Origin: Agelas oroides
Taxonomy: Eukaryota > Porifera > Demospongiae > Agelasida > Agelasidae
Assembly: GCA_949130485.1 (NCBI GenBank)
Contig: OX422197.1
Span: 4,859,693-4,923,692 of the forward strand
DNA length: 64,000 nucleotides
Direction of reading: 5' to 3'
Below are positions 539-60,429 of this stretch, one piece after another. Numbering within the stretch: the stretch's first letter is position 1; each line of letters starts with the position of its first letter. A program made the position numbers and the translations under genes. Under the pieces are notes generated by a model that saw only the letters and a program-made list of their open reading frames with translations, had not been told where the DNA came from and searched no databases.

Positions 539-3500
539 TCAGTTTGCTACATCCCTTGAGTGTGTATTGATCAAGGTTGCATTGTAGTATGTTGCAGGGG
601 AGCCGGGGGAGAGGAAAACCCTCAAGTCTTCAACCTTTTCTGGAGACTTTTTGCTGTTCTCTCTAAATTTATCTAGCAGTTTCTGAATGCGGTGTTCGCT
701 ACCAGCAGTATCGTCAAGCAAGTCCTTTACAGAGGATGGTAATATTTCTCCACCGATCTTAGGATTGCGCTGCTTTGTTGAAGGCTTAATGTTTTCAGGC
801 CTATCTTTGAAGAAGTAGTTGACCAATTCTCTGATGTTTGACTCTTTTAGAGCTGGTGCTGGTCCCACATTAGCTGATCGCTTTCTTCTATTTGTTACAG
901 GGGGTCCCTGGCAGCTTCTTTTGGGGGGTGGGGCTTGATTATGTGGGAATTTGGGTACTACTGTCATGATGTATCCAACCAGCTGGGCCCCAGGTAGAGT
1001 CACTAGAATCCCTCCATTCTTTCTCTCAACACGAAAATTGTGTGGATCTGTTCTTGCCTGGCCCACTGGCGCAAGAGTAAACGGACCATAACCACCTGTT
1101 AGAGTATTAGCGTATGCATATTTCATCAAAATGTTCAGGATACTCTCTGTTCCATTTGAATCAATCTCAAACTCAGTAAAGAATATTTTGATGTTGCTGG
1201 CAATGACAAAGGCTGATGGATATTCAGGCAGAAGGTATTTTCCCTTAGATACCACCTCATGAAAATAGTTCTCTGGTGTTAGTGGTCCTGGAGATACTAA
1301 ACCACTTCCATTGACCTGCAGAAAGACAGGTAACAGCTCTATCAACAGTTGGTACTTTGGATGTCTATTTATCCATACAATGTTGTGTAAACTGTTAGAT
1401 GAGAGATTATACATTTACAACTGACCATATACTCTAAACCCATATTCCAATCAATTAGCTACACCTAAAGCTGTGAAAACGCATGGCCTAACCGATGTAC
1501 AAAAGGGAGTGCCTTAATTGGAACAGTAGTTGAAGTTTTGCTTGTGATCCATTGAGTTCAGTCCAGAGGATGAAAATCCACATAGGAAAAATAGTAATGC
1601 TCTAATGAACAATAACTATTTTGTTGCTTGGGCCATTGAGTTCCCAAGGCTGATGTTACACCTTCACAGTTTGGTTACTAGCTACATACGTACGTAAACA
1701 GAGTCAAGGAACTCATTCCCAGTATCCACACTTTTTATATACCTAACTTGAGAGTAGCGTGAATGTACTTAAGAATAGCAAAGACCAACCATTTTCATAT
1801 GGGAATCTTCAAATACTGTGATGTCAAACCATGGGCGAAGAATATCCACCTTGAGCAAGGATGCCGTGATTTGTGTATGAGCTTCATTCAGTGCTTTGGT
1901 AAAGTTTTTCAGCAATCCAAATGCTCTCAACTCACTGTCTACAGTACAGGACTCCAAATGCCATAGTTCTCTGTGTGTGACATTAGTAGGAAGTAATAAA
2001 TCATCATTGCAGTAGATTCTATCATTTTCAGGGCTTTCCTGTCTCTGAACACAGTCACTATCAATCAACACCTCTTCTGTTTTGAAATCCAGTTGAACTC
2101 GCCCTTCCTCTGTGGAACATTTTGCTTGCTCCTGTACACTAATTGTTTCACTCAGCTCTGAGGTTTCAGTCTTGTCCAGCTGATGCTGTACTGCTTTCTT
2201 TTGTGCATTAAGTTCACTAACCCTGTCCTGTAGAATGGAGATAAATTTTCTTCTACGATTAAGAATGGAATTGAGGTATTCCACTTGAGCATATTGTTCA
2301 GCAACTTCTTGAAGCAGAAAGTGGAAGGCACTGCGTCCATCAGATATGTTTTGGCAGGCGGCAATATCTAGTTTCATAAAACAAGATATTTCCATTCGTT
2401 GTAGAACACCAACTCCAGTTTCAACCATTTGATTCAATTCCTGAAGTTTTTGAGCTATGTTCTCCATTTCGTTTTGTACTTCCTCATCACTCTGACTATA
2501 AAGGCTTACCATTGTTGCATTCAGAGAAGCTATCTGAGCCTGAATAAGGGATATTTGGTAGCGCAGCTCATCTGCACTTTCTGGCAAGCTGCACAAAGGT
2601 AGATAGGAAGCATAGGTTAACTCTGTGTATGCACAATCGTCTACCCTTGTTCTTTGTTTCAAGTGAGACTCAGGTTGAGGTAATCCGTTGGCAAGATAAT
2701 ATCAAGGGTGAATCAAGCACATTATCAAAGGCTTATCAGATAAGCCTTTGATATTATATAGAGGTGACTTAGATGCAAGATTAGGGGAGTGAGTCATTCC
2801 TAATTGTAAACCATATGACATGTACATGCATAGCCAACTTTTTACCATTCAACCACTACCAGCAAACCTGGCTCAAAATAACTCAATTAATAACTCGTAA
2901 CTACGCAACCACTTTCATCTCTGAACAAGATTCATTTCGTACCAGCAAGTTTATATAAGGGGAAAGCTCTCCAATCTGTGAAAGCACGTTAACACTAAGG
3001 TTACAGGACACCACTTGCACATGAAGTCACCGTAAATTTCAAATTTCCGTTGTATGTCACATTTTCACTTGAAATAGTTGCAATTTGGTTTGTATATTTT
3101 CTTGAAAATAGTAAAATTCAGCTTTCTATGCAAAGCATGAAATGGACAATGCAGGGCATGACAAAAGCTTGATCATCAGCTGTTGTATAGCTATAGAGAG
3201 GTTACATTGTAATTATGTGGCACATGAAGTTCAAGTAAAGCAGAAAACAATTTCGTAAAAAAGCAAGAGGTGCTGTCTGTTACAAAATGTCAGCCTAAAA
3301 TGCTGTTTGTCAGTCCCGCGTCTTGCACAGATGGAATTTGGCTGGAAAGTTAATAAACCTGTTTGACTACTCGTACACAACCAATAGTTTGAGACTGCTC
3401 ATGGCTTCTCACTATACAATAATTTTGCGCAGTGCCTCTTAATTCATCCTCTGTGTTTTACAGCTTTAACCAAACACACACAGCCAACATGAGTGGTACT

Positions 3501-4846
3501 GCTGACTATGCTCCATTTTGGTATTCCAACTAATGTCCTGTTTACACATACTAACCTGGATTAGTTTGGGATCCGGGTTAAAGGCCTCGTGTAAATGGGG
3601 CTTTAGAGTAATCAGTTTGTCTGTCCATCAGTCAATCACTCAAATTTTGAGCAGTTTTCTACACAGAATACTATCAAAAAAGGTAAGGATCGGGGGAGAT
3701 GGCTTTTATAATTACTTCTAGCTGATTAATTAGACATAGTAAAGACCTTTCCAAGGGCCAAACTGTAACAGTGGCACTAGGCCCATATCACTGGGTCAGT
3801 TGTAATAACATCAGAGAGTGTTCTAGAACCATTCACTATCACTCCACATAAATTGAAGTTGAAGATGAACAACGAGATCAATCAAATCGAGATCGAGAAC
3901 ACATCAATCTACTACCATGTGGCTAGACAGATAGCCACCTCCCCCACCAATCCCTATGTGCACACATTAAAGAATAGCCACTAGGAAACATATCCTACCT
4001 TGTTTGTAAGGAAAGGTACCAGTTGGCTGGACTAAATGTCACAGGATAGACCATCTTATCCAGGTTTTGCAAAGAAATTTTAGCCAATGACTTAAACAGT
4101 GCTTTTGTACTCAACAGTTTGTCTTCATGTCTGTCAATTTCTAAATACTCCAGTTGTTTCTCAACTTCGGCTTTGTAGCCAAACAATTGCCATTTCTCAA
4201 ATATAGCATTTATATCACTGTCTTGAAGGGGCAAATTCTTCAAGCTCCACTCCTCAAAATCGCTCGCCTCCATCTTGTTGCGGTTTTGATCAACAGTTTC
4301 CTGCCACTCTTTCTTCTTCTGCAAGTACTGATGTCTGTAGTAGTCATACAGTAGGAATCGAGGTAGTGTGGCTTGACCGTCTCTCACCACACGCTCGGGA
4401 TTTGGAACCTGTTCCTGTAAATAGCATTTCGCTCGTAGGACGACATCTGATGGGAGGTTCTTTGGAGCGACCATCATGTGTTCCAGTACAAACTCATACA
4501 AAGACGATAATGAGTCAAATCGCGACACTTTCTGTGTGGTGGTATTGGCGAAGAGAACCTGACGCGGCAGAGGAACCTTGTTCACCAACGTTTGAGCATT
4601 TTCAATGATGCGAGTAGGTAGGCTTTCTCCGAACCCTGGAAGCGATGGTCCAGGATAAAAGTCATGGTAGGAGAGCGGAATACCCGAATCGAGAAGGGCA
4701 ACATGCTTTGTTCCCGAAGCTATATAAACACAGCTTGAAATAGCTGCGTGGAGAGAGCGATACAATTCGATCTGCTTACATTCGCTGACGTTGCGACCGA
4801 CACACAGTAAGGGGAGGACTAAGACGAACAACAAGATTCCCTTCAT
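539..4846 (-). CDS. Secreted coiled-coil protein, paralog 1 of a divergent pair (family unrecognised)
   Basis: Three exons: 4846-3999, 2651-1790 and 1315-539 (828 aa). Junctions are AG|GTAGGA and ATG|GTTGGT donors; the phases are 2 and 0, and the total length is divisible by three. Residues 1-17 are a signal peptide (MKGILLFVLVLPLLCVG). Exon 1 (to ~282) ends in a YPVTFSPANWY motif. Exon 2 (283-570) is mostly predicted coiled coil and closes with an ILRPWF..VFED motif. Exon 3 holds LLPEY, GPF, PGAQ and VPKFP motifs, then a basic tail of ~165 residues absent from the paralog, with a furin-like RRKRS site. The same three-exon layout and motifs occur in the plus-strand gene at 4925. I do not recognise the family and assign no function. 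The exon 2 acceptor could also be 6 bp further in (2645). Confidence 0.8.
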
Positions 4847-4924
4847 ATTGACTTAACAGTGTAGCTCCAGTTGTCGTACAGACCACGCCTACTAACGTTC
4901 TGTTACTTACAGTGATCGTGCAAA
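4847..4924. promoter_or_regulatory. Compact bidirectional promoter between divergent paralogs
   Basis: Only 78 bp separate the two start codons (4846 minus, 4925 plus). Both genes must share core promoter DNA here, or use start sites inside each other's first exon. No clear TATA box was seen. The arrangement suggests an inverted duplication of an ancestral gene and likely co-expression. Confidence 0.6.
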
Positions 4925-7480
4925 ATGTCGGAGGTCTTGAAGTTGCTGTTAGCCCTGTGGCTATTGGTGTATTTTCCTGACGTCGTGGCTCAGAATCCCC
5001 ACGTTGACGACTCGCAAACCCAAGCAAAGGACTCAGAAAAGAAAGCCAACGATATCATGCAAGGATTATACTTCGCCCTGAAGAGCGCCGCGCTTCCTAA
5101 TTCGCCCAATTCAAACAAGAAAGTGACGCAGCGGTTTGTGCTAATGTCTCCGGGGAAAGTACTCAACTTTTTTGACTACTACCCTGGAGAACAATACGAA
5201 AGTAGCGTGCAGGACATCAATACTTCGACAAGGGAGTACGTCGTCCCTCCGAAAATAATGGAGAACTGGTTCGACCTTGCGGATGTAGTACCTGGTGTGG
5301 ACCCACTCACTGGAGGAGAAAATGGCGAGAGCTTCTCGCAAAAGTACCAGGAAGTACTCGATCAGATTGAGATTGAAGGCTTCGACAAGAAAACTGCCGA
5401 AGAGCAGAAGCGATACAAAAACGCAATAGGCTACTTGAATGGGATCATACCTGATCCAGAAAATCTCACGCAGAAAGTCACTCGACTCGCCCTTTACAAT
5501 CGCTTTCAAGATTTGTACAACGAACGTCGGCTTCAGATGGAGGACATCATTAACGAGAAGAGGCAGTTGATGCCAGCCATTGAATATGAGCTGTGGTTCC
5601 AAAGGAATTACCCATCATTACGGTCATTAGTGGGGAGTGCTTACACGAGATGGTCGGTATTTGGTCAGAAAGAAATTGTCGAGCTGTACAAAGCTTACTT
5701 TGATACTGGTGTAAGTGAACAGAATTTAGAACTGGGACGTATGGCTTTGCAAGCTTCTGGTGTAAGTGCTTTGGATCGCACCCGAACTATTTATCCTGTT
5801 AAATTTGTTCCATCAGACTGGTACAAGTATTTGCTGCCATCAAGGTAAATACACAATGTTATGGTGAAGCACACGTACCAATACCAGTTAGGTTATTTAA
5901 TACCTTGACCGAGGCATGCATGTGAGCAGGGCTAGTCTGCATCACATGCCCATGCATGCAATGCAACATAAGCACCTGAGCATAAGATGAAAAATCTAGA
6001 TACACGCCACAATTTTGTCCAATCTAGTAGCTAGCTGGACTAGACACATAATAAGCATCCCAACTGACTAGTTACAATTTGAAACATGATATTATAGCTG
6101 CATGCACTTTGTGTTCCCCGTGCACAGACATCAGGGTCTCAGTCGTGATCAATTGCAAGCAAAAATCGGAATGATCAAGAGTAAGCTAGCAGTGCTTCAG
6201 AGCATCATGGATCAACAGCAGAAACTTGGAGGGGCACAGGATCTCACTAATATGAGAAACACATACGAGCATTACAAGGAAGCTACAACAAACAATGCTT
6301 CAGTACTGGTCCGATTGAGAGCTCAGTGTATGGAGACAAGGGACCCTAGATCCAGTGCATGCAGTCAATTTCGCAGTGCACAAGAAAGTACCACAAATGC
6401 ACTCTTTCAGCAAGCACAGAGCTACTCCGAGTGGCAGTCACTGGACTTCATCATGAATACTTCAAGTTCATTTCACAATGGTCTGGTAAACCAGATTGAC
6501 CAACTGAACCGGGAACTACAAGAGCTGGAAGACCAGCTGAGGGGCACTCTTGGCTACCTAGGTGATATAGTTGAATCTCAGCAACTTGACTTTTCTAACT
6601 TGACAGACATTGGCAGAGATGATGCATGGTTGCAATTCTACTTTGACTCAAAATCGTCTCAACAAGATACCGAACGAGAATCAAGCTCAGTCAGTTTTGC
6701 TAGCAGCTTTAGCGTTGGAGGACTCTTCTGGTCTGCTAGTGGAAGTTTTGGGTACAGTCGCTCAGAATCAAATTTTGCTGCCAGTGTAGCTGGTTCTCAG
6801 GTCAAAGCATCAGGAGAGCTCCTGCGTGTGCAGATCCTAAGGCCATGGTTTAGGCCAACTCTCTTTGAAGACCCAAATCTGTCCTTTGTGAGTTTGTTTA
6901 ACCTTGTTTAGCTCATAGATAACTATTATGATTGCATCGCCAAAAGCCAACCTCTCACTGGCAAAATCTTAGTCAGTATGTAAGCACAACTTTAAATTTG
7001 TAAACAGCCATGATCTAGGATACCATATTTGCTGTGCATAATTACCAAGACATGCAGTCCTTAACAATGGTGTTGCTGTTTTTATCCCAGTCAATCAACT
7101 CAGGTGGAAAAAGAGGGTACGTTTCACCAGGATACAGCAGTCAGCAGAATTTCGTCAGGGCATTGATGGAGGACAGCACTGTCTCATATCTGCTTCCAGA
7201 GTATGCCACTGGTTTTCTTCTTGCCCGAGAAATCGACTTAGAATTCAGTGGAATTGATGCAAGTACTGCAAGCCACATGGTGCAGACCTCAATACAGTCT
7301 TCTCTGTCCATCGGCATTGGACCTTTCAGTGCCTCAGCATCTTATGGGGAAAATCATCAAAAGTCTAGTTTCCAGGCTAAACGAACTGCCGATGGCCTAA
7401 AGATTTCAATCCCGGGTGCCCAGATTATTGGTTACTTTACTGAGATTGTGCCAAAATTTCCAACTGAACAACCCTTGTGA
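4925..7480 (+). CDS. Secreted coiled-coil protein, paralog 2 of a divergent pair (family unrecognised)
   Basis: Three exons: 4925-5844, 6128-6887 and 7091-7480 (689 aa), in phases 2 and 0 exactly as in the minus-strand paralog. A signal peptide spans about residues 1-22 (ending DVVAQ). Exon 1 carries FVLMSPGKVLNFFDYYPG and ends YPVKFVPSDWY. Exon 2 (307-560) is coiled coil, then a Ser-rich stretch with repeated SFSVGG/SASGSFG character, closing with ILRPWFRPTLFED. Exon 3 has VSPGYSS, LLPEYATGF, GPFSAS, PGAQIIGY and VPKFP and stops at once, lacking paralog 1's basic tail. It has no TM segment or GPI signal, so it is probably secreted. Family unknown. The polyadenylation signal is at 7749. An alternative is that GTGAGA at 7476 acts as a donor and the protein continues, but I see no acceptor to support that. 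Confidence 0.85.
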
Positions 7481-13676: not shown

Positions 13677-14012
13677 TTCTTGCGTAAGCTTACTGTACTG
13701 AGGCGTGGTTATCCACACCTATGAGTGGGCGGGACTGGCTTTTAATTACAGTATTACATTCAGAAAGATATTAGTGTATATTTTACTGCAGACGTGGGAA
13801 AGTAGGGACCCAGAAAATAATCTAGACTGGCGCGAGGATTGGTGTCTACTAGTACACGCGTGGCGTCGTCTGTACGCGTGGCGTCTAAACGCGTTCTTTA
13901 AAAACCTGGCACCTGTAAGCGCTCGTTTTAAAATTGCGTTTTGCACTTAACTGCTTCACTGTTGCGACAGCTACATACAGTACTTCTGCAGATTTCGAGC
14001 TTGTTTCGAAAT
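13677..14012. promoter_or_regulatory. Shared promoter / orphaned 5'UTR of CBM21 copy 1
   Basis: This segment lies between the sushi-receptor start codon (13676, minus) and the left end of the MULE at 14013. It contains a CpG-rich block (acgcgtggcg words around 13855-13890). Its last ~35 bp (cttctgca...tcgaaat) align with the 5'UTR of the intact CBM21 paralog at 30598-30627 (cttctgca...gcgaaa). I infer that it was the bidirectional promoter and 5'UTR of the CBM21 gene whose coding part now starts at 24084, 10 kb away. Confidence 0.65.
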
Positions 14013-14053
14013 GGGATTCGCTTTTTTCACAGCGGTTCATGTGGTCACGTGCG
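14013..14053. repeat. MULE left terminal inverted repeat (41 bp)
   Basis: Matches the right TIR (24035-24075) at 41 of 41 positions after reverse complementing. With the last two bases of the flanking duplication it forms an ATG at 14011 that opens a 16-codon ORF (MGFAFFTAVHVVTCEE) closing at 14061. Confidence 0.9.
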
Positions 14054-14346
14054 AAGAATAACCCCTATAGCACTACGCTAGCGCTAGAAATAAACAGGAT
14101 CTGAGTGCGAATTTACAATGACTGAAAGAGTGGTCACGCAGGACGACGGTGGTAGGAATACCTTGAATGCCAATAGTAAGGTACAAATAAGTCTTTTTAT
14201 AACACAAACAATATAAAAGTCTATAACACAAACAATATAAAAGATGTACAGACAAACTATATAATGGGCTATTCCATTTAATAAGCATACACCCCCTGTG
14301 GATGGACAGTTTGGGTAATGTGGCCCCCTAGACATAATTAGTAGCC

Positions 14347-15415
14347 AATACCCCCCCTGGACAGCTAATCAAATGGGTTGTAATGCCCCCCTGACACAAT
14401 TAACTCCATGTCCATCCCCCTGGACAGCTAATCAAATGGGTTGTAATGCCCCCCTGACACAATTAACTCCATGTCCATCCCCCTGGACAGCTAATCAAAT
14501 GGGTTGTGATGCCCCCCTGACACAATTAACTCCATGTCCACCCCCCTGGACAGCTAATCAAATGGGTTGTAATGCCCCCCTGACACAATTAACTCCATGT
14601 CCATCCCCCTGGACAGCTAATCAAATGGGTTGTAATGCCCCCCTGACACAATTAACTCCATGTCCATCCCCCTGGACAGCTAATCAAATGGGTTGTGATG
14701 CCCCCCTGACACAATTAACTCCATGTCCACCCCCCTGGACAGCTAATCAAATGGGTTGTAATGCCCCCCTGACACAATTAACTCCATGTCCATCCCCCTG
14801 GACAGCTAATCAAATGGGTTGTGATGCCCCCCTGACACAATTAACTCCATGTCCACCCCCCTGGACAGCTAATCGAATGGTTTGTAATGCCCCCCTGACA
14901 CAATTAACTCCATGTCCATCCCCCTGGACAGCTAATCAAATGGGTTGTGATGCCCCCCTGACACAATTAACTCCATGTCCACCCCCCTGGACAGCTAATC
15001 GAATGGTTTGTAATGCCCCCCTGACACAATTAACTCCATGTCCATCCCCCTGGACAGCTAATCAAATGGTTTGTAATGCCCCCCTGACACAATTAACTGC
15101 ATGTCCACCCCCCTGGACAGCTAATCGAATGGTTTGTAATGCCCCCCTGACACAATTAACTGCATGTCCACCCCCCTGGACAGCTAATCGAATGGTTTGT
15201 AATGCCCCCCTGACACAATTAACTGCATGTCCACCCCCCTGGACAGCTAATCAAATGGGTTGTAATGCCCCCCCCTGACACAATTAACTACATGTCCACC
15301 CCCCTGGACAGCTAATCAAATGGTTTGTAATGCCCCCCTGACATAATTAACTGTATGACCACCCCCCTGGACAGCCGATCAGATGGGATGTAATGTCCAC
15401 CTGACACAATCAAAT
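14347..15415. repeat. 63-bp minisatellite, left arm of the nested element
   Basis: About 17 tandem units of 63 bp contain ccccctggacagctaatcaa and gccccctgacacaattaac. Two unit variants (gggttgtaatg with tccatcc, and gggttgtgatg with tccaccc) partly alternate, a sign of higher-order duplication. Because 63 is a multiple of three, a 301-codon open frame of 21-residue repeats runs through it; I regard that as a by-product. Confidence 0.9.
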
Positions 15416-15939
15416 GCACAAACAATGCACTGTGTATCCCTGAAATATTTAGTGTCACTAGTGGACTGGTGACTCAAGACTACCTATGCCGAACATATAC
15501 AGAAGCCTTAGCATCAACAGCCACAGAGTAATGACACATACTTTTTACAGTTTACAAACTTTGTATATAATATTGAATTTGTGTTCAGTAACTACCCAAG
15601 TTCAAGGAGGACAAATAGGTGAAGTACGCAATGCTGCTAGTTTAAAAAATGCTTTTATATCCACACTTTTGTAAGTTTAACTTCAATATTAGCTTCTTTG
15701 TCATCTTGTTTGTTTATGACTTTGTAACGGGGTGCTTTTCATTAGCTATGCTATCTTAATTGTATCCCTTCAACTTTCATAGAGAAAAAGAAAGATTGGT
15801 TATAGCTAGTAAACTACGTATAAATCCCATGCATGGCTACCAAGCTGTAAGTGCACTGTGTATCCTACTAACCCTTGTATCCTTGGTAATAACCAGTGCA
15901 TTGCTAAGATCTTCCCAGCTTTATTCTTGTTTCCAAGCA

Positions 15940-16225
15940 ACAGATGGGGAACAGCCTGAGTAGAGGATCGAAATGATGTTTTCTTTTTCTATAGTAACAG
16001 TTGGGGAACAGCCTGAATAGAGGATAGAAATGATGTTCTTGTGTCTATGGTTAAAAGGTGGGAACAGGGTAGGAATGATGTTCTTGTGTCTATGGTTAAA
16101 AGGTGGGAACAGGGTAGGAATGATGTTCTTGTGTCTATGGTTAAAAGGTGGGAACAGGGTAGGAATGATGTTCTTGTGTCTATGGTAACAAGTGGGGAAC
16201 AGCCTGTGTGGAGGTAGGAATGATG
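15940..16225. repeat. ~45-bp tandem repeat
   Basis: About six units of the type aggaatgatgttcttgtgtc followed by tatggttaaaaggtgggaac. The central three are nearly identical and the outer ones diverged. It lies inside the nested element. Confidence 0.8.
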
Positions 16226-18429
16226 TTTCATACAAACCACCTTGTTTACAGTGTAAACTATCTTGTATGAATAACAACAAAGACCAATCCTTTGAGGTAT
16301 ATATAGCCACGTAGCTTGCAAACTTGTTCTCAGCTTTGCCCTTGGACTTGGTGATCCTAAATCCTAAGCTACCATGCAATATTTTATACAATCAGTAAAT
16401 CATTGTTTCACTACATGTAGACAGAAAAGAAATCAAAAACCTACAGCTGTATAAAAAAGGCGATAAGAACCTATGATAAGTGAAGTACACAATGCTTAGC
16501 TATAACATGGTAGCCATTAGAGTTGTGCAGCAACCCTTGTCCTCAGATTAAAATGACCATACAATAACTTGACCTGATTTGCCCTTGGTTTTATTAGCAT
16601 ACACACAATTGTATATTGGTCTTTTGATATTGTAAATCTGAATCTAAAATCTTGCAAGACTTGTAAGACTGCAAGTAGCCCCTTGGAAATAGCACATGTA
16701 GCTACAATCCTATACATGCATAGTATAGGGTCATGACCTCTAGTAGCTATAGAAAGAGTACATAAGAATGGCTATATACATCGTACATAAGAATGGTGTA
16801 TATCTGTTGGTTGGGCCTGCACAAAATGTATGTATAGCCAGGTGTATGCTAGACCACTCAAAGGATCCACTAATTGCAAGAAGACTTTCCATGTGGATGA
16901 TGTTGGTGCATCCTTGTTCTGAGGCTTGCGCTATCAATGATGGCATAAAGAACAACATAATACCAAAGATCCGTTGCCAATCCCACCCTGCTCTGTTATC
17001 CATGATGATACCTACTGCATAGACAAGTAACTATAGAGACTTATGCAAGTAGGGCTATATTATCTACACTTATAGCCACTAGGTGTTTATATAACAGATA
17101 TTCTTGATGACAGCTAACAGCTCTGTAGCATGCTTTTGTATGTCTAGCTACCAGTCACTCCAGAGTATAGACATGTACACGACCCTTTTGTGCAAGCAGA
17201 TATGCCAAGTATCAGTCAAATCTTGTACAGTGCTACAGGTACATAACCTGTGAACTATTACTAAATTAGATTTGTACTTGTTAGCATGTAGGCTTGCCGC
17301 CCACATGCCATATATAGACCAGTTGGTTTACTTATCTAAGTGGCTTCAATTATCACTATCCACAATACATGCTTAGGCGCTTGCAATCTCTATGTGGCAA
17401 GTGGCAACTTTACCCCCTCACTGCAGTAAATGCAAGCAGCAAAATCAAAAATCATCCCAAAAAATTAGAATGAGACAGCAGTAATAGATGTAGGTGTAAT
17501 GGGCTTATAAATATGATTGCAAAAAAATGCTGTTGACATACTTTCATTTTGCAAGCTATTGAGCTCAGCAATACGTTGGAAAACTTGGAGATGGTTCAAC
17601 AAGCTTCTGCTGCCTCTTTCAACAAAGTAACTGGCACTTATCCTCAAACACTAATAATTACTGTTGTCTCTGTAATGCATGTGATGACAATAACTGGCAC
17701 ATGAAATAATGTGAGCAAGCCTATTACAGGCTTTAGAGACCATGTTGTGTTGCATGAAGTGCAATGAATACTCAATAAGCTTTGTGCCGTAGGCTATGTT
17801 GAGCTAATAAATGTAGAGTGCCGAAGCTGTTACAGTTCGTATACTGTTGGTGCAGTATAATTGACATTGGCTACCTAAATGACCAAAACAGTGAATATAA
17901 AATAGCTATGAACACAATTTTAACTATTTTTCCACTTCATTCTTGTTTCTGTAGTATCAGGTAAGTAATGAACTCATAGGAAGTTGTAGGTTCTTTATAG
18001 TTAGAGCATGGTAGCCAGGGATTTATGATCCCAAGTCCCAGAGCACAGTCTGAGCTAAAACATAACTCTACTGGTGTGGCTAACATGCATGCTGTGTAAT
18101 CAAATTACTCTTATTGATCGTTGTTGTTATTACAAGTTGTACAGTAACAACCTGACACAGCTGCTCTTCAGAACTGTATTTGTGTTCACTAAACAAAGAT
18201 TACAATTACAAGTCTTCAAGCTTTATTCTGTACTTGGAGTGTGCACAGTGCTAAGTTCCATAGAGCTAATGTGCAATATGCACAGGTAGTGTTAAAATAC
18301 TGTACTGTAAAGCACCGCTCGGTTGTTGGCAACACAGTTTTGTCCATTATTTGAAATAACTAATTTCCGTGCAATGTAAGATACTGCACTCGATGATAAA
18401 AACTGAGCATGTGTCTCGCGCTTTGTGCT

Positions 18430-19340
18430 CGTCACACCCCCCCCCCCCCCCTCCCCCACCTGGACAGCCAATCAAATGGGACTTAGCGCCCCCCTGATAC
18501 AATTAAGGGCATACCTACCCACTTGGATAGCCAATCAAATGGGATATAGTACCCCCTGACATAATTAACAGCTTTTCCAACCCCCTGGACAGCAAATCAA
18601 GTGGGATGTAGTACCCCCTGGCAAAATTAACAGAATTAAGGCATCATGTATAACCAAGTAGCTATTTTCTACTTTTTACAGAAATAGAAACTAGCTACTT
18701 GGTTATATATGATTTAGCTATAGATTTTGAATTTTGAGTGATTTCATTTCATTTATGTAAGTTCCACCACGCCTGCTCACAAGAGTTAACTAACAGTTGC
18801 TGAAAGGCTTTAGCTGTCCACGGAGTTGTATTATAACCCCATGGACATAATTATACTTAAAGAATTTATCCCCCTTGACACAAGTCACAATTCTGGCAAT
18901 ATACCCCCTGAACTAGCCTCGTTCCCAGGCCTCCCCCGTTTTTTGTTCTTCAGTTTGCGTTCAATATATTATACTGAACGCAAACCGAAGAACAAAACAC
19001 GGGGGAGGCCCTGAACCACCTTGACACTAATCATACTTCTGGCAATACACCCCCCTGGACATAATTCCACTTGAAGTTTATCCACTTCAACCCCCCTTGA
19101 CACAAATCATAATTCTGATGATACACCCCCTGTACATAATTAAGCTTGAACCACTTGTACCCCCTTGACACTAATCATAATTCTGACAACACTGGCTCCC
19201 GGACATAATCCTACTTAAAGTTTACCCCCTTTGATCCAAATATCCACCCCCCCCCGTACATGATTAAGATTAACCACTTCTACCCCCCTTGACACAAATC
19301 ACAATTCTGACAATACACCCCCCTTGACATAATTAAAGCT
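18430..19340. repeat. C-rich subterminal repeat array, right arm of the nested element
   Basis: Degenerate units of 60-75 bp with ccccctggacataatt and cccttgacacaaatcac motifs are the counterpart of the left-arm array but much more diverged. A hairpin (gtataaccaagtagct / agctacttggttatat, about 18648-18706) and a fold-back MITE (18914-19010) interrupt it. Confidence 0.75.
18914..19010. mobile_element. TAGCCTCG-type fold-back MITE, nested copy
   Basis: The left arm tagcctcgttcccaggcctc is followed by cccgttttttgttcttcagt; the inverted right arm ends acgggggaggcc. The outermost right bases are missing. It has the same family structure as 41812-41938. Confidence 0.7.
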
Positions 19341-19380
19341 CATCCACAGGGGGTGTATGCTTATTAAATGGAATAGCCCA

Positions 19381-22300
19381 ATACAGTAGTGATGAACACT
19401 TTGGTTGAGAGGAGGCTCATCTAATGGATAATCTCCATGTTGTGATAAAATACAGTCATAGTGGCATCCTCTGACATTAAGAAGCTCAATGTGGTTTAGA
19501 CGAGACAGCTGTTTGGGTGGTGGATCTTAGGATGGAAAAGTAAGCCTATCCCCACGGAGAGGATTATAACGGAACCATTTGTAGGTATTCACATTGGGAA
19601 TTAGGGTGAATACAGGAATTTGAAGGAGCGACGCTGTTGCTAGTATCTCAACTGCTGTGCCCCACACCCTTGTACATCTCATATTAGACAAGTATCTTTC
19701 AAAGTCACCATCAATGTACGGTCTGAAGCTATCTCGGTTCTGCGAGACAAACTGGACCAATAGCTCACGTACTTTCTCATGGCACATTTCATTGCCATAC
19801 AACACAAAAGCAAGGGCACGGAACAAGCAATTTCCATCTCCAGAGATAGGTTTGACTTTGCAATCCCTTGCAGATAGAGAAGCTATTGCTTGCTGAAGAG
19901 GATCCTGTGGATGAATTGAGATCACTCTGTATAATATTAGATCCCATGTTTACTGTATGTTTTACACACCTTATCTCCTATCTGCTGTGTAGCTGGAGCA
20001 GGCCCTGAGGTTACAGCAGGCTTCATCTGATGAGATCCTAAGAAGACGATGTATTCAACACAAATAAAAGTGATTCAGCCAGGTATGTTATATCCTTACC
20101 TTGTGATTCTTCCGCAGATGTTAACCCAAGACATCTACGTTTAGCACAGCACTGCTTCAGTGTACCATGTCCCCCAAACTTTGGCTTGTCGAGGCAATAT
20201 TTGCATTTGCCACAGTCTGTACAAAGGCATCCTTCACAGGTGCCACAGCGCTTCCTCTTCATCCCTATGATCATAGTTACAGAAGTACGTATGATAATTT
20301 GTTGTCTGCTGTCTCTGCTTGCATAAATCATACCTGTGTGTGGTTTAGTGGGCTCACTCTTCCCTTGTACATTGTCACAGGGGCTTGGCAGACAACCAGT
20401 GTCAGACAGAGAGGTTGATTTGCTGGAGACTGCAAGTGCCTATACAAAGGTATGAACAGATATCTTCATGTTGGATGTGAGTGAATCCTTGTTGTTTGTT
20501 GCTTAGCAACTAAAACAAGTGAGTAGATGTGATACTGAACTAGCAAGATACTGGCATGAAATACCAGGCCTAGCAAAAAAAGATTTCACTGTAGATGTAA
20601 GGAAGACTTTAGCCACAAGCATGCACCCAGTGTAGATATACGCATACCTTCCGCAGCTTGCTGGCTCGAATCCCAACATGATTCCTGAACTTGGAGTTCA
20701 TTCTTTTTCGTCCATGTCTCTTGGGATTTGGTAGGGAACCATATCCAAGTTTCAGCTTTGAAGAGATTGACTTGTATTTCTTCTTTGTGCGAAGTGCTTG
20801 TTTTTGTGTTTGGGTAGCTGTCAAAAGGAGTCCATCCTGAGAAGGAAGTTTCTCTTGGAACATCTCAGTGATGTCATGTATCGATGACTGCAAGTTCATC
20901 AACATTTCTGCATCTGTACACACATATGACAATGTTTCAAGTCTTTTGAGCGCAATGCGAACCTTCTGACCGGCTTTCTCCACACTAACAGACCTTGCCT
21001 GGGGTGAAAGGTGAGCACCATACAGACATGTTATCAGCAACATTTTTATGTCATAATAATCATCAAACTATCATAAAGATTGCATTTTCAATCAAACATG
21101 TAAAAGGACATACCTGAACATGACCGGCAATACCAACAATTAAATGTTTGTACTGTTTGCCCACACAAATTACTACCTCCAGCCAGCCCAATTTTAACAT
21201 ACACAAAATCATAATGATGTACATGTACATTATAACACATACTTTAACTTGCAGATTTTGTGTAGACTGTTGTATCAGTTCAGCATTATGGACATCGTTG
21301 TCATCATTCAGATTGAGAACAGGAGATCCATCAAAATGCTTCTTCAGAGCCTCAACATCAGTTGATAAGTATGGGCTGTGAAGATAGCTCGGTGGTAGGT
21401 TACTCCACTGCCATGCTGACCTGTGCTTGAAGATGGCGAAAAAGTGTTTACACGTATGTGCCAATTTGTCCAGTCTTGACATGTGCATGAGGGCATAGAA
21501 TCTGGGTTGTCATTGCCAAAGCTGACTCTGTATTTAGCACCAGATGATTTCATAATTTCAAATATTCCCTTCTCCTGATCATTGTCAATAATGTTACTGG
21601 CTGTGAGCTTGTGGCTTCTTGCCATCCTGTCAAGACAATGCAGAATGATGTTTCTGGGTCTGTCCCGGAGGTAATCAGGCACAAAGTCATTGTAGGTTCG
21701 GTACATAGATGTTTGTTTATAGTTTTGCAGCAAGTATTTTTGATAGGCTGTTGGCAAGTAGTCTTCAACAAGTAGAGTTGTGATGGCAGAGACAGTTGCC
21801 CTCTGTTTGTTGCGAGGAAGGAAGTTGTACTTGAAGAGCTTATTCTGAGCTTCTATGCCGTTGTTTGTATTGACGGCAGCATGGTACACAGAATCACGAT
21901 AGGCATGTGCCCATCTCTGCAACATGAATGGATACAATCAAGGTAGAATTTGGTTTACACTAATGACCATGCATGTCCCTGGGTTTTGTCCACCTATAAG
22001 AAAACCCAAGGAGAGCCCATAGAACCTTGTGCTCTAACACATAACACTAGATATGGAGCTTTTGTCTCCATGGTAACATGTTTACATTGCTACTGGGTTG
22101 CTAATTGGTATGTGGTCAAGAAGCCAGCCACATAATTACATTCATATGCACATCATGTAGGTACCTGTGATATGGAAAGCCATGTTGTTGATAACCACTG
22201 CTGGACACATGGGTGATCTTTCCACACCTTTGAATGTTTGAGGTGCCGTACTGATTCTTCGTAGCAGATGCCAATATTTTCACCCTCTTTTCCAGGTGGT

Positions 22301-23651
22301 GCCCATGCACAAGCCCGCAGCTCAGCCAGGAGTTGGTCCGCTTCCTCTGATGTCAGGCCATGTTTCCCATCTTTGACCCACCTTTCCCATGCCTGTTCAC
22401 GATGGAAGTCACAGAGGTAAACGATTGTGTCTGGAAAACAGCATTCAAGAGCAGATATCTCAGCATCTGAGTAATCACACATCCAAAACTTTGGATTCCA
22501 TTCTGGATTCCAGCAATGTAGAATATGCAGTGCCTCAGAGATGCTTTCTGTACTTTCTGATTCCAGAATAAATTCTGCAACAACAGAGTAGCCAACATTG
22601 GTACGAACGCACACAAAGAATAGTGGAAGCTCATATCTTGTGGTTTTATGTGTAGCATCAATTAGGGAAATGGTGTTCCCATACTTCAAAATTAGGTCTT
22701 TTTGCCATTTTTGCTGGTGAATCCAGAGAAACGAGTTTTCCTGTGACTGTTTAGCTGTAGGGCCATCAACTTCACCTTCTTTTTTACTTTCAGCAGCAGT
22801 GCTGTTGCAGTCACTGTCAATGCAGCGTGGACGGAAGAAGAAGTTTGCATCAGGATGAGTTTTCTTCCAGTTGAGGACCTTTAGTCTGAGGTTTTCTTGG
22901 TCGTATTTTGAATGTTGTAGAGCTTGTTTTGCTCTGTATATATGATTCCTCAAGTCATCATGTGTTGGGAAGTATGCTCGATCATTTGGGTCTGGTGGGG
23001 AATCTTTGCAGAGGTAGTGGTTGATGCGATGTCGAAGTGACTTTTTCACATCATCAATTTCAGTAATACCATCTGCAACTAACTCAGCTATCATTTGAGC
23101 TACAGCTGGGTTAACCTTCTGTGAGAAAACTGCAGCCTGTTTCACTGGGTGTGCTTTCTCATGTGCCTCTACTGTTGGCAAAGATAACCAGTATCTTGTC
23201 GTCTGCTTGATGCATCCAGATTCGATTTCATTCTGCAATTTCTTCAGTGTTTGTTCCTTTAGGAGTCGCAGGTTGTATTTGCTCTTCCCCTCAATATCAT
23301 CAGGGTGTATAGCATACTCTGGGAATAGAGTGTAGTGTTTGACGACAACATGTGCAGGGCATCCAATTTTACGTGTGTTTTGCAAACGTAATTGTTTTCC
23401 TTTCTTTGGTTTGGATTTATAGTACTGAGGACCATACTGGCATTGGAGATGCTGGCTGTCTCCTACAATAAAGGGTGTATTTCCAAACTCCACTGTAGTA
23501 TTCCCTTGTTTGTAACTCCAGTATATTCTGGGCTGAGGTTTCTGTAAAAAATTAACACCATATGTACTGGCTAGTATTCAATCTACATGTACAACTGTAC
23601 CTTTCTGCCATCTTGAGTTTCATCATTCTCCTTGTGCTCTAGCTGTGACAT
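19381..23651 (-). pseudogene. MULE transposase fused to SWIM, CXXC and OTU domains (two lesions)
   Basis: Exon model (minus): 23651-23601, 23541-22165, 21916-21243, a possible 63-bp exon 21176-21114, 20998-20648, 20439-20334, 20264-20100, 20037-19970, 19904-19527. Phases are consistent throughout. Domains by residue: MULE DDE transposase with D312 (LIDATHKT), D376 (CDYSDAE), CDFHREQAW, and the likely third acid E498 (NNGIEAQNK); SWIM finger (SCTCQDW..CKHFF) near 21470-21430; CXXC zinc finger at ~878-920 (RCGTCEGCLCTDCGKC and KFGG); OTU protease fold at ~953 onward with SGDGNC (Cys ~978). Two lesions are seen. One base is missing inside the SWIM motif near 21454. An in-frame TAA at 19527-19529 precedes the rest of the OTU domain, whose catalytic-His motif (NVRGCHYDCI) continues in the same frame to the nested insertion. 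Assembly errors are an alternative explanation for either lesion. Confidence 0.85.
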
Positions 23652-24034
23652 CTCCTGCTGGAATTACGCACACCGAAAGATGTGACTGTCTCCTTGTAGT
23701 ATTCCTCCAAGACTGCTGGTGCATCATTGACAAAGCCTTCAAAGTACAGTCCAACTTGATGCAAACCTGCAGCCCACCTTGGAGCCATCTCTGATACTTG
23801 TGCACACATGCCACTTCATACCAAAGAATTTTAATCAATTGTATGCCCAGACGAATGTTTGCATTACATGTTATAGTGTCATTGATGCTATTTACGTTCC
23901 ACATGTAAGAGAATGATTTCTAGTCTGTCCATCAATACATACCTGGTGGTCAACTTAACAGTCAGCGAGCACACCGGATCTGTTGGAACTTGCCGCCAGT
24001 GCAGTGTTACATACCGGGTTAAACTTGGTAAGTG

Positions 24035-24075
24035 CGCACGTGACCACATGAACCGCTGTGAAAAAAGCGAATCCC
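24035..24075. repeat. MULE right terminal inverted repeat (41 bp)
   Basis: Reverse complement of the left TIR. It lies 8 bp upstream of the CBM21 copy 1 start codon at 24084, so any promoter activity in the TIR would drive that gene. Confidence 0.9.
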
Positions 24076-24083
24076 GTTTAGAA

Positions 24084-24724
24084 ATGGGATCTACGACAAA
24101 GGCGATCAAAAGGCTACTTCGATTCATGGTGTACCGGAGGCGTACACGCCGTTCGAAAACTCGATCCGACAAGATCCCCTTAGAAGAAGTCCCCCAAGTG
24201 TGATCGCCTTAAACAGCAATGACAATGGCATCCTAGTACAGCCAGAAAAGCATGACACATGTAAGGAAAAATCCAACTTGGACAGCATTGATTGTGAGAG
24301 TTCAGATTTATCTATTAACAAAGAACATTGGGAGGGTCTTGGCTGCTCTTCTGATGACTTGCTATGCCATTTGAGTGAAGAGGACACAGTTCCGAAGACC
24401 AACAACAATGGACCTGTTGCCCTCAATCTAGAGTCTCTGCACTTCCAGGATGGGGGGATAAAAGGCATCATCCAGGTAGCAAACATGGCATATGAAAAAC
24501 ATGTGACTGTGCGGTGGTCAGCGGATGGATGGAAGACATGGATTGACACAGATGCAACATTTCACAGCAGCCTCAGCAAAGACAGTGATCTGTTCGAATT
24601 CATCATACCCTCACAGACAAAAACTGAGTTTGCTGTGAGGTATCACGCAGCTGGACAGGAAGTGTGGGATAACAACTCTGGATGGAACTATCACACTGAC
24701 TTGATTCCAATATTTAAATTGTGA
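24084..24724 (+). CDS. CBM21 protein, PPP1R3-like glycogen-targeting subunit, copy 1
   Basis: Proposed exons are 24084-24197 and 24242-24724 (198 aa), with a 44-bp GT..AG intron. Without that splice the frame stops at 24203. The N-terminus MGSTTKAIKRLLRFMV is basic. The C-terminal ~100 residues are a CBM21 domain: NMAYEKHVTVRWSADGWKTW, FEFIIPSQTKTEFAVRYH, and WDNNSGWNY, the hallmark of PPP1R3 regulatory subunits that tether protein phosphatase 1 to glycogen. No convincing RVxF PP1-docking motif is seen. The start codon directly follows the MULE right TIR and target duplication, so the original promoter and 5'UTR are on the far side of a 10-kb insertion. The gene may be silent or driven from the TIR. 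Its paralog is at 30628. Confidence 0.75.
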
Positions 24725-30510: not shown

Positions 30511-30627
30511 GTCTGAATGCGTACATAAATTACACGAATACGCTTTCGCACTCACTGTTAGCATATTGTACCGTTCTCACGGCCACGCATATCTCTTCTG
30601 CAATTCAGAACTAGAGTTTTGGCGAAA

Positions 30628-31453
30628 ATGGGATCTGCAACAAAAGCGTTGAAAAGGCTACTTCGATTCATGGTGCGCCGACGTACATGCCGTTCGAAGA
30701 CTCAATCCAACAAGATCCCTTTAGGAGAAGTTCCTCAAGTCCTCTCAGAGACGTCAACAACAACCGACTCGCGAAGTGAGTACCAACCTTTGGAGACAGT
30801 AGACTCGCACGTGTACACAGAAGTGAGCCCCGCCCACACCATGGCTAGCCCCACCCCTCAATGCCCCTTCGATGACTGATATTGGCGTCCTTTTACAGCC
30901 AGAAAAGCACGACGCGTGTAAGGAGGAACCCAACATAGACGTCGCCTTCGATGACATTGATATTGGCGTCCTTTTACAGCCAGAAAAGCACGACGCGTGT
31001 AAGGAGGAACCCAACATAGACAGGATTGACTGTGAGAGTTCAAGTTCAACTACTGACAAAAAATCTTGGAGGCGTTTTGGCTCCCCATCTGATGACTTGC
31101 TATGCGATTTAAGTGAAGACGACGCATTTCCTGAGGCAAATAGCAACGGACCTGTTGCCCTCGATGTAGAATCTCTGCACTTCCAGGATGGACGGATAAA
31201 AGGCGTCATCCAGGTGACAAACATGGCATATGAGAAATATGTGACTGTGCGCTGGTCAGTAGATGGGTGGAAGACATGGATTGACACAGATGCGACATTC
31301 CACAGCAGACTCAGCAAAGACAGTGATCTGTTCGAATTCATCATACCCTCACAGACAAAAACTGACTTTGCTGTGAGGTATCACGCAGCTGGACAGGAAG
31401 TGTGGGATAACAACTCTGGATGGAATTATCAGTTTTACCCCAACATGCATTGA
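30628..31453 (+). CDS. CBM21 protein, PPP1R3-like glycogen-targeting subunit, copy 2
   Basis: Exons are 30628-30822 and 30899-31453, both phase 0 (249 aa). The 76-bp intron runs from gtgagc to cttttacag. The second exon could instead start at 30980, because its first 81 bp, including the splice acceptor, are tandemly duplicated; that choice gives 222 aa. The N-terminus MGSATKALKRLLRFMV matches copy 1. The CBM21 domain has NMAYEKYVTVRWSVDGWKTW, TDFAVRYHAAGQEVWDNN and SGWNY. CBM21/PPP1R3 proteins bring PP1 to glycogen and promote its synthesis. A clear RVxF motif was not found. It has a normal 5'UTR, whereas copy 1 has been cut off from its own by the MULE. This is probably the functional copy. 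Confidence 0.8.
30865..31029 (+). repeat. 81-bp tandem duplication spanning a 3' splice site
   Basis: Two units of gatattggcgtccttttacag plus exon sequence to caacatagac. The two acceptor AGs are 81 bp apart, an exact multiple of three. A 2-bp indel lies in the intronic part. Confidence 0.85.
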
Positions 31454-57527: not shown

Positions 57528-59531
57528 TCAGTATGCTGTTTCAATCGCATTAGAGTTAGAAGAATGACAACTCAAGTTGTCCTCAACTTGATCAGCTACT
57601 GGACTTGTGAGGTCTTCCTCGTATTCCTCAGGGTTGATTAGCCTGTCAGGAAGGGGCTCCTCTGGACCAGTAGCACCCATTTGCCTACGGTTTTCTCCAA
57701 TCAAGCCACAGACTCTTCCTAGCATCCTCTGCCCAAATTGCCTTTGAGAACACATCCAGTGAAGTGTAACAAAGGATATGTAGAAGAGGGGTAGTATTGC
57801 CACAATATACAGAATTAGAGCAAAACAGATTTTCCACTTGTGAGCTTTCTGTGTTGATATATTAAAACACAAAATACCAGCACACCACAAAGCCAATAAA
57901 AGCACTAGCACTGACCCTACAACATTGTATGTAGAGAATCTTGGTTTGTAGGGTTGCAGAACGAGTATTGCTATTACTAGAGGTATTAGCAAAAACAGTG
58001 CTGCACCGTAAAACAGTTCTGTTTGAGTGAAAGCAAGAATAACAAAGACCAAAATTCGGGCAAAAAGAAAGGCAGCTGCAAAGTACCGGCAGTCTCGAGT
58101 CCCATTGGTCCCATCCTTGTAGCAGCCCTGAAATGCATCGATAAAGATGGGAAGAGCATGCCACCTTATTCCACAGCAGCCAAGACACCGCTGAAAGCAC
58201 CGCATTGGATACAGTAGCAGAAGCAGTAGAGGAAAGAGGATGAAGACCAGCATGACAAACACAGCTAGGACACCATAAGGCAGGTGTTCATCACCAAAGT
58301 ACTCAATTGTTGCATCATAGTACAGATACAGTCCCAGTGAGCTACCATTTACATTGTACACGTGTGTTGGGATGAGGAGATCAGATGAAACACCGAGAAG
58401 CTTCAGGTATGAAAGGAGAAGAAAGGTGGCAAAAGCTTCAACGATGGAGGTCCTCACATCCAACTGCTTTCTGAAACAGTTTACACACCTGTGGAATGGT
58501 CTGCACATACAACTAAAAGTGTAGGTGTTAACGTGAATGAGTACATGTGTGAATACAAGCAAAATCAGGGGGTAGAAGGCTATAGCATAGTCAAGTGCCA
58601 AAGTTTGCACTGTATTTATTCTAACACAAATGTGAGGCAGTAGAGTACGAAAGAAGTCCAAGTTCCAAAACCCATAAAATGTAAATAAGATCTTTGCTAA
58701 ACTTGTAGGAAGGGGGTAGCCGTGTAGTCCTACTAACAGAATGCGCACATTTGCTCCTATTGCAAAAGACTGACTAAAGAAGACAAATGCAAACAGTTTT
58801 GGTGAAGTAGCACTAAGCCTGCAACTCACAGCCAGAACAAAGAACACCGTGAGTGGTAGAAAAGCAGCTAGGATGTACTTCACCCAGTTGAAGGGACTAG
58901 TAGAGCACCGCACACACTTCAAATCATAAGAGTAAACTGGTACGCTATAGTTCTCCTTGCATTTTCCACAGAGTTGTCCTTCTCGATTAAGATGCCCACA
59001 CATATAGTGATTGAGTTCTGTGATATTGGATGGTAGCAAATAATACAATTGCATTTTCAGTTTGAGATTTAGATTTAGGAAATTATAGAAGCAAGAACCA
59101 ACAACTGGCCCAGTTGATTCATTGTACGTCATGCAGTAGCAGTCAAGTATAGATGACTCTTTTGTTGAGTTATTACATCTGACAGCATCATTAATGCTAT
59201 CTCCACATCTGCATGTGCCATTTGAGGAGGAATCCGGGATAAACCAGGTGGGACATAGTGGATGATGAGGTTCATCACCTGCAGACTCCTGGAGCTCCTC
59301 ACACTTACGTTCGTGCTTCACAACTACTAGAGTAGAATTGTACAGTTTCACACCATCAACAGTCACTTCTACACTATTGCTTGAGGATTGTACACTGTTC
59401 TTCCAGGAACTTGGATCTAGTGTCCCATTTACTTCATCAATATAACTGATCTGCTTTGGCTGAACACTTATACTTCCAACAGCAGTCAACAACTGCGAGA
59501 AAATTACCATTTTGTATACCACCTTGATCAT
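57528..59531 (-). CDS. Cys-rich ectodomain multi-pass membrane protein (about ten TM), unknown function
   Basis: 667 aa in one exon. A signal peptide lies near residues 8-25 (MVIFSQLLTAVGSISVQ). A glycosylated, Cys-rich ectodomain (~25-210) contains CRCGDS, MCGHLNREGQLCGKCKENY and SYDLKCVRCS. About ten hydrophobic segments follow, from WVKYILAAFLPLTVFFVLAV (~215) to LYIVAILPLFYISFVTLHW (~600). Signature stretches are FWNLDFFRTLLPHICVR, LDYAIAFYPLILLV and VLQPYKPRFSTYN. The tail is acidic with DLTSPVADQVEDNL. I recognise the pattern from expanded, uncharacterised invertebrate families (my recollection is mainly sponge), but assign no transport or receptor role. Two damaged relatives lie downstream at 60430 and 61630, so the locus expanded in tandem. 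Confidence 0.85.
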   Translation of the reverse strand: MIKVVYKMVIFSQLLTAVGSISVQPKQISYIDEVNGTLDPSSWKNSVQSSSNSVEVTVDGVKLYNSTLVVVKHERKCEELQESAGDEPHHPLCPTWFIPDSSSNGTCRCGDSINDAVRCNNSTKESSILDCYCMTYNESTGPVVGSCFYNFLNLNLKLKMQLYYLLPSNITELNHYMCGHLNREGQLCGKCKENYSVPVYSYDLKCVRCSTSPFNWVKYILAAFLPLTVFFVLAVSCRLSATSPKLFAFVFFSQSFAIGANVRILLVGLHGYPLPTSLAKILFTFYGFWNLDFFRTLLPHICVRINTVQTLALDYAIAFYPLILLVFTHVLIHVNTYTFSCMCRPFHRCVNCFRKQLDVRTSIVEAFATFLLLSYLKLLGVSSDLLIPTHVYNVNGSSLGLYLYYDATIEYFGDEHLPYGVLAVFVMLVFILFPLLLLLLYPMRCFQRCLGCCGIRWHALPIFIDAFQGCYKDGTNGTRDCRYFAAAFLFARILVFVILAFTQTELFYGAALFLLIPLVIAILVLQPYKPRFSTYNVVGSVLVLLLALWCAGILCFNISTQKAHKWKICFALILYIVAILPLFYISFVTLHWMCSQRQFGQRMLGRVCGLIGENRRQMGATGPEEPLPDRLINPEEYEEDLTSPVADQVEDNLSCHSSNSNAIETAY

Positions 59532-60429
59532 GGCTGCTTATGCGTAGCCCTAGCTGTTTCACTATTAAACATTCAGACAATGCTTGCCGCTGGAATATAC
59601 TACAAAAGATGATTTCATCATATTCAAACACACAACTCTGTAGTTTTGAAAACATTTCTCCAACTTCTGACCTTGATCACACAACTTAAAAATGGAATAT
59701 CAAGGAGGATGATCGACATTTTTTTATAGCTATCAACAACAGCAAACAAGCTACTATATTTTTTACACTAGATGGCTGCCTGTAACATACATGTACTGCA
59801 TTGTGGAATTGTCCAGATGCTACGTAAGCATACTTGACAGCAATTTTGGACTGATAAGTGGTTGCTGTTATTGGCTGATTTGGGAAGTGTGTTCATATGC
59901 TAAAAAGCATTTTACTGTCTTGATTTAACTGCTAAAAGCAGTACCAAAAACATAACATTTGAAAGGAAGTAAAAAAAAAAACTCCCCTCCTGGCTGTAAC
60001 ACACAACTACAAAATAACAGACAGGCTTACTGCATCTATGTGGTCATGGCAGTCTGTGATGTACAATATAGCACAAAAAGGAACAACATTAGTACTGATT
60101 GGTCTTCCACAAAGTGTTGTGGAGTTACTTTACACTTGGCTATCCCACTGAAAACCACACTGGGTACAGTAGCACAGACACAACTGGGAGAATCACAGAG
60201 ATTAATAAAAGCAGCAAAGCAAAGACATCATATTGTAGATATAGCCTCATCCCCAGCCCACCCAAGGAGAGGGAGGGGGCGGGGGGTGAGGCTAATTGTA
60301 GATACTGTTTGCCAGAATATGCAATCAATGTATCATACAACAAGAATATATACCAACAAGCCAAAAACACTTCCATTAATGTTGTGAACTTCAGTTGGAG
60401 CGAGAAAGCAAGGTACACACTCAGAAACC
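59532..60429. other. Intergenic; duplicated 5' flank and a fold-back fragment
   Basis: Sequence at ~59695-59790 (aaggaggatga, caacaacagca, tagatggctg) parallels ~63510-63620 upstream of the pseudogene, so the tandem duplication included 5' flank. A hairpin tagcctcatccccagccc ... ggggggtgaggcta (60242-60296) is a TAGCCTCG-type fold-back. No gene seen. Confidence 0.6.

Follow-up and report, generated by a model that had tools for sequence, protein, structure and literature searches.

A MULE with an OTU domain is already in print: MuDR-6_HM of Hydra is listed with an 'Ovarian Tumour Gene' in Table 1 of PMC6446971, where Rehavkus appears with a PHD domain and a minisatellite. OTU, Ulp1 and PHD domains are also described for Ginger1 (available part of PMC2836005), and Helitrons and Helentrons may carry OTU or VTD domains (available parts of PMC9741609 and PMC6431247). 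The element described here is a MULE transposon with a minus-strand gene at 14013-24075 of a 64-kb stretch of the Agelas oroides genome (the window; C15:4859693-4923692), and the whole 259-Mb assembly of 141 contigs was searched for its relatives. Its transposase joins an ALS2CR8/CaRF domain, a MULE core and a SWIM finger to a C-terminal CXXC zinc finger and OTU protease domain. The best explanation, to which we assign a probability of roughly 0.6, is a CaRF-type MULE family whose transposase carries a CXXC-OTU module at its C-terminus, in which the CXXC finger would guide insertion and the OTU domain would remove ubiquitin.

As in MuDR-6_HM, a MULE is combined with an OTU domain; unlike the Agelas element, the table entry for MuDR-6_HM (PMC6446971), with which the comparison is by description only, shows no zinc finger and no terminal inverted repeat (TIR), and leaves the target-site duplication (TSD) unindicated. 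Ginger1 likewise has a transposase with a C-terminal OTU or Ulp1 domain, once with a PHD domain as well, but its core is of the Gypsy-integrase type and no CXXC was found in the available part of PMC2836005; in the Agelas protein no integrase family was reported by Pfam at E up to 1, and a MULE core was found instead. Helitrons and Helentrons share a transposon-coded deubiquitinase-type domain, but encode a rolling-circle RepHel protein and no DDE transposase in the available descriptions (PMC9741609, PMC6431247). Conversely, the CXXC finger with its KFGG motif is found in KMT2A/B, DNMT1 and KDM2A/B, which are host chromatin proteins. Neither CXXC nor Porifera occurs in the main text of PMC6446971, CXXC is absent from the available text of PMC10027918, and among the titles and beginnings of abstracts listed from the openly licensed literature none pointed to a transposase with a CXXC finger. 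The full domain set is therefore unreported as far as the literature search reaches; to that extent the novelty suggested in an earlier note on this DNA holds for the complete set, MULE with OTU alone being known from MuDR-6_HM (PMC6446971, Table 1).

The closest relatives of the transposase are ALS2CR8/CaRF-type animal MULE proteins. Among 72 of them, which include named proteins from Hydra, oyster, sea urchin and fish, 61 have the ALS2CR8 domain, 68 the MULE domain and 46 the Pfam SWIM domain. The layout of ALS2CR8, MULE core and SWIM finger followed by a variable C-terminal part is common to these proteins and the Agelas element; where they carry Ulp1 C48 (16 proteins), PHD (11) or USP (1), the latter carries CXXC and OTU. 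This pattern suggests a C-terminal slot in CaRF-type MULEs for interchangeable readers and ubiquitin/SUMO proteases.

The gene comprises eight exons on the minus strand, with borders set at GT/AG sites in the window (Table 1). Because these borders give an open frame across the same eight exons, with a stop after the OTU domain, in three of 11 long copies (L031, L033 and L037; 1,153-1,154 aa), the exons are assigned to one gene. That this single gene lies inside the TIRs, is multicopy and shares its CXXC-OTU module with divergent families is virtually certain. The earlier note had correctly placed the element, for which 41-bp TIRs and a 10-bp TSD with one mismatch (GTTTCGAAAT / GTTTAGAAAT) were found here, and had read MULE, SWIM, CXXC and OTU in one exon chain, overlooking the ALS2CR8/CaRF domain that forms a further N-terminal part of the gene.

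In the spliced read-through of the window Pfam reported ALS2CR8 (1.1e-28), OTU (PF02338, 2.4e-14), zf-CXXC (PF02008, 4.9e-12), a ZSWIM1-3 RNaseH-like domain (5e-10) and the MULE DDE core (PF10551, 6.3e-10; 39.8 bits against a cut-off of 27.6). Pfam SWIM was not reported for this read-through, perhaps because a frameshift crosses the finger; the CxCx(n)CxH pattern of the SWIM zinc finger, which is common but not universal in the MULE superfamily, is nevertheless present, as CTCQDWTNWHIPCKH in the open copies. The catalytic columns of the core are conserved. D312 and E498 of the triad proposed earlier stand: they align with D356 and E544 of P0001, two columns that do not vary across the 36 rows of alignment A1. 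For the second catalytic D, D376 had to be replaced by D373, whose aligned column (D417 of P0001) is at least 90% conserved in A1; at the D376 position P0019 and P0024 have E, and P0005 has T. The CXXC finger shows the family's cysteine pattern with KFGG and KQCC, residues which we take to contact CpG, and is closest to the fingers of KMT2B, MLL1 and DNMT1 (9.9e-13 to 7.1e-12). The OTU domain belongs to the OTU fold and includes the catalytic Cys and His; a structure model made for P0075, with 24 of the 44 proteins from a database search aligned, reached a pLDDT (predicted local distance difference test) of 88, and the best-matching folds were OTUD1, OTUD3 and OTUD5, in agreement with the sequence profile.

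Table 1. Features of the MULE element and its borders in the window
Feature	Position	Strand	Basis
Left target-site duplication GTTTCGAAAT	14003..14012	.	sequence at element border
Left terminal inverted repeat, 41 bp	14013..14053	+	inverted-arm search, TIR search
Complete MULE element, 10,063 bp in window copy	14013..24075	-	TIRs and TSD
Nested second transposon, TIR GGGCTATTCC..., 63-bp minisatellite inside	14266..19379	.	repeat and genome TIR search
Exon 8, OTU protease domain, GDGNC and HYD motifs, premature TAA; last codons past nested insert, near 14262	19380..19904	-	Pfam
Exon 7, linker	19970..20037	-	
Exon 6, CXXC zinc finger (motifs KFGG, KQCC)	20100..20264	-	Pfam
Exon 5, linker	20334..20439	-	
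Exon 4, transposase C-terminal region, basic at end; 13 of 72 relatives match, best P0001	20648..20998	-	
Exon 3, E498 of the triad; SWIM finger, with a frameshift in window copy	21243..21916	-	
Exon 2, ALS2CR8/CaRF domain; D312 and D373 of the MULE core	22165..23541	-	Pfam, alignment
Exon 1, N-terminal segment, frameshifted in window copy	23601..23789	-	
Right terminal inverted repeat, 41 bp	24035..24075	-	inverted-arm search, TIR search
Right target-site duplication GTTTAGAAAT, ends in AT of presumed host start codon	24076..24085	.	
Presumed host gene start (MGSTTKAIKRLLRFMV...), conserved in copy at 30626-30740	24084..24203	+	sequence comparison

A genome search with the TIR returned 117 matches, against none for the reversed-pattern control, and all nine long copies having both ends are flanked by 10-bp TSDs with 0-2 mismatches, within the approximately 8-11 bp of MULEs; on these grounds the element is considered mobile. 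Of the 117 places, 100 were listed; 21 of these lie in long copies and 79 resolve into 53 further loci, 30 of which were used below. Ten further long copies were compared, and the eight other copies with both ends located are 4.8-5.6 kb long. The CXXC and OTU exons, which the earlier note had attributed to the element, were found in all 11 long copies including the window (approximately 98-100% identity to the window), with no consistent absence. Since these copies were selected by an OTU search together with the TIRs, the presence of OTU is partly by choice, that of CXXC is not: a CXXC search after copy selection gave 12 near-identical exons, of which 11 belong to the long copies and the remaining one to a fragment at C6:2038975. 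Eight of the 11, window included, show no open reading over the eight exons. Among the copies, L035 has a split OTU exon, L034 a longer intron, L040 and L041 an insert in exon 4, and L039 lacks the 5' part in the stretch examined. Deletion copies in the protein database join the transposase to OTU (P0097, P0099) or to CXXC (P0104), and P0097 continues into the MULE's own end, skipping the nested element. Separately, 20 of 26 short loci with paired ends measure about 360-480 bp and bear the MULE's TIRs; these short loci are probably a family of miniature inverted-repeat transposable elements moved by the MULE transposase. At a distance of about 660 bp from the MULE copy L038 there is a second CXXC finger (GKRSRCGECEGC...; ~6520-6640, minus strand; C20:3771810), which apparently belongs to a host gene.

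The window copy itself is a relic, broken in four ways: by two frameshifts, one close to the start and the other in the SWIM finger, an in-frame TAA between Cys and His of the OTU domain, and a nested transposon that removes the final codons. The latter is 5.1 kb long (TIR GGGCTATTCCATTTAATAAGCATACACCCCC), with a probable 3-bp AAT duplication seen by eye, and its family has 136 TIR matches in the genome, the paired ends often 3.5-11 kb apart. The stretch from 14.3 to 19.4 kb was considered as a part of the MULE and rejected, as it belongs to this separate family and is missing from the same spot in nine of the ten other copies. In L039 an insert of about 4.1 kb (~1182-5269) lies approximately 50 bp from that spot, with only short matches to the nested transposon.

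The module is not confined to the window's family. Co-location was examined for 119 MULE, 80 CXXC and 51 OTU matches, two of the last being halves of one split OTU. For 39 OTU matches a same-strand CXXC match was present no more than 3 kb upstream, for 12 it was lacking, and a MULE core lay within 12 kb of 27; with strands flipped each count fell to one. Both were present at 25 of the 51, and outside the window's family MULE core, CXXC and OTU occurred together at 14 of 38 OTU matches. Likewise, 28 of the 80 CXXC matches had a MULE core upstream (3 with strands flipped). In divergent loci chosen for a module check, CXXC stood beside OTU in four of five, and OTU and CXXC were found together in five of the 44 proteins of the database search. 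Between families both domains differ by 0.23-0.48 at nonsynonymous sites (pN) and by 0.66-1.07 at synonymous sites (pS), the latter near saturation, a pattern that fits purifying selection on CXXC and OTU, under which it would be expected. Another MULE-core element, at L012, L013, L016 and L026 (TIR GAGTCATTCCCAGAATGTCTAATCC, 42 matches), has no CXXC match nearby.

The insertion site in the window can be compared with a duplicate of the host sequence (30626-30740) that is 85% identical to 24082-24199 and has no MULE. The presumed start codon is present in both (ATGGGATC..., MGS.TKA.KRLLRFMV). The left flank aligns weakly with this copy (local score 17, against a mean of 15.6 and a maximum of 24 over 500 shuffles), and it is consequently the right flank and the TSD that identify it as an empty site. 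The flank cuts used for these alignments and for the CpG ranking of the empty site were 1-3 bases off the true ends. The window as a whole is CpG-poor (observed/expected ratio, o/e, 0.36; TpG+CpA 1.42), as would be expected of a methylated genome; for CpG o/e the empty site ranked in the top 0.6% of positions at 200 bp, 1.1% at 400 bp, 4.4% at 600 bp and 5.5% at 1000 bp.

CpG-rich flanks were seen over 41 insertion loci, comprising the 11 long and 30 other copies. Pooled flank CpG o/e fell with distance from 1.14 (≤100 bp) through 0.80, 0.78, 0.68 and 0.68 to 0.54 (700-1000 bp), compared with 0.50 pooled over 20 random stretches of 500 bp; median values within 200 bp were 1.08 for long and 0.96 for other copies. 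Of the 41 loci, 34 had a ratio of at least 0.75, as had 4 of the 20 stretches of random DNA; a rank test between the two gave p = 3.5e-6, and the near flank exceeded the far flank at 34 of 41 (p ~1e-6). Both ends were located at 31 loci, 21 of them with a clear 10-bp TSD, and these gave 1.09 falling to 0.44 (p = 3.1e-5 versus random). The result was kept in the ten loci without TSD (median 0.96) and in the ten one-ended loci (1.05). Flank sequence is shared in two locus pairs (L034/L066 and L046/L058). Flanks of the nested-type transposon family gave 0.66 (p = 5.6e-4 versus MULE; left flanks only, 20 of this family and 36 of the MULE, 64 of the 119 MULE matches having entered the comparison). 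In combination, these figures establish with high confidence that the MULE insertion sites are CpG-rich. For the promoter targeting proposed in the earlier note the CpG-rich flanks are correlational support, and the CXXC finger as their cause is a step that we infer.

In the mechanism favoured here, the SWIM finger and basic regions would act in DNA binding, and the CXXC finger would hold the transposase at unmethylated CpG-rich promoters, thereby biasing the location of insertion. The OTU domain would strip ubiquitin on the spot, whether the transposase, repair factors or the chromatin of the promoter carries it, and transposition could then finish or be tolerated. The CpG-rich flanks fit CXXC-guided targeting without proving it, and we give the finger an even chance of being the cause. 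A broader version would treat the CXXC finger as a built-in CpG-island address label in a CpG-depleted, presumably methylated genome, with OTU stripping promoter ubiquitin (e.g. H2A ubiquitin from CpG-island-bound PRC1) or protecting the transposase; the element would then be one case of a wider CaRF-type MULE rule, by which the transposase can combine a domain that reads chromatin, CXXC or PHD, with a ubiquitin/SUMO protease of the OTU, Ulp1 or USP type. This version is tentative, and we would sooner bet against it than on it.

Several observations weigh against CXXC-guided insertion by such a module. Neither CXXC nor OTU was found in any of the 72 closest transposase proteins, although several of the closest appear truncated and the search took its query words from the first 500 residues. 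MULE core and CXXC are not both near 26 of the 51 OTU matches, partly since the searches score best candidates only, and at L117 MULE and OTU occur with no CXXC in the 1.5 kb examined nor within 3 kb. L038 lacks exon 7 and has one finger Cys replaced. CpG o/e at the 41 loci is a proxy, ten of the 31 both-ended loci have no recognisable TSD, and surviving copies may misrepresent where insertion happens. Flanks of a CXXC-less MULE family ranged from 0.14 to 0.87, at four loci and five sides too small a control (the figure omits seven of 12 sides, all 0.0, at the near-identical loci L005-L008, L014, L015 and L017). Finally, the abstract of PMC6446971 reports MULE insertion within genes or close to them, and the bias may need no CXXC.

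This last point leads to a different account, in which the CXXC-OTU module is functional but target choice reflects a tendency of MULEs at large to insert at open 5' gene ends, the finger serving e.g. to shield the element's CpGs or to bind its ends. The left terminal 249 bp of the MULE, with a CpG o/e of 1.11 versus 0.33 in the coding part, would suit a finger acting on its own element. The weaker bias of the other transposon family (0.66, 20 flanks) speaks against a general preference, though that family may not be a MULE, and the five sides of the CXXC-less MULE family would point the same way, few as they are; overall we consider this account somewhat unlikely. As to the OTU domain, P0076, a relative that has lost the catalytic Cys, illustrates how it could be catalytically dead or only bind its target. 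This we regard as unlikely for the Agelas protein, as DGN is invariant and Cys, His and Asp are at least 90% conserved in the 24 aligned relatives; together with the structure model, these motifs suggest that OTU is probably an active deubiquitinase in intact copies. The earlier note's proposal that the element counters ubiquitin-dependent host control would go a step beyond this fold and its conserved Cys and His.

Two further accounts deny the module a role in the element. MULEs capture gene fragments (PMC6431247, PMC6446971, available parts), and CXXC-OTU could be a functionless, Pack-MULE-like passenger taken from a host gene. Pack-MULEs carry gene fragments without a transposase frame, however, while the cargo here is in a single frame with the transposase in open copies and present in all 11 long copies; moreover, a passenger requires neutral evolution, and both domains change between families as under purifying selection, making this very improbable. 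Alternatively, the two exons would belong to a host gene adjoining the MULE, as might be read from the 39 OTU matches with CXXC when only 25 have a MULE core too. Copies with different TSDs nevertheless contain both exons between their TIRs, and the open copies read through in one frame, so that the chance of a separate gene is close to nil. Host gene and passenger were accordingly both rejected, on the exons in 11 of 11 copies, the open frames, the divergent loci and pN/pS.

To our knowledge, how MULEs come to prefer genes is an open question, and a transposase that itself recognised unmethylated CpG would offer a direct test of that preference. The relatives (Ulp1 in 16, PHD in 11 and USP in 1 of 72) suggest a reader plus a ubiquitin/SUMO protease as a recurring add-on of animal MULEs, and the element may provide a lead for transposon tools aimed at CpG islands.

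At the host locus, two copies of a CBM21 gene, presumably of the PP1 glycogen-targeting type, occupy 24084-24724 and 30626-31453, with the MULE in the first only. The frame from the presumed host start closes at 24203 and differs from the CBM21 frame (24062-24724). The CBM21, sushi and sulfatase genes that Pfam identified in the window mark the host as an animal, as do the names of the relatives. Elsewhere in the window, look-alike genes were seen by eye on both strands at 539-7480, with no Pfam match, and two related long membrane-protein-like open reading frames, the first without a Pfam match, on the minus strand at 57528-63333.

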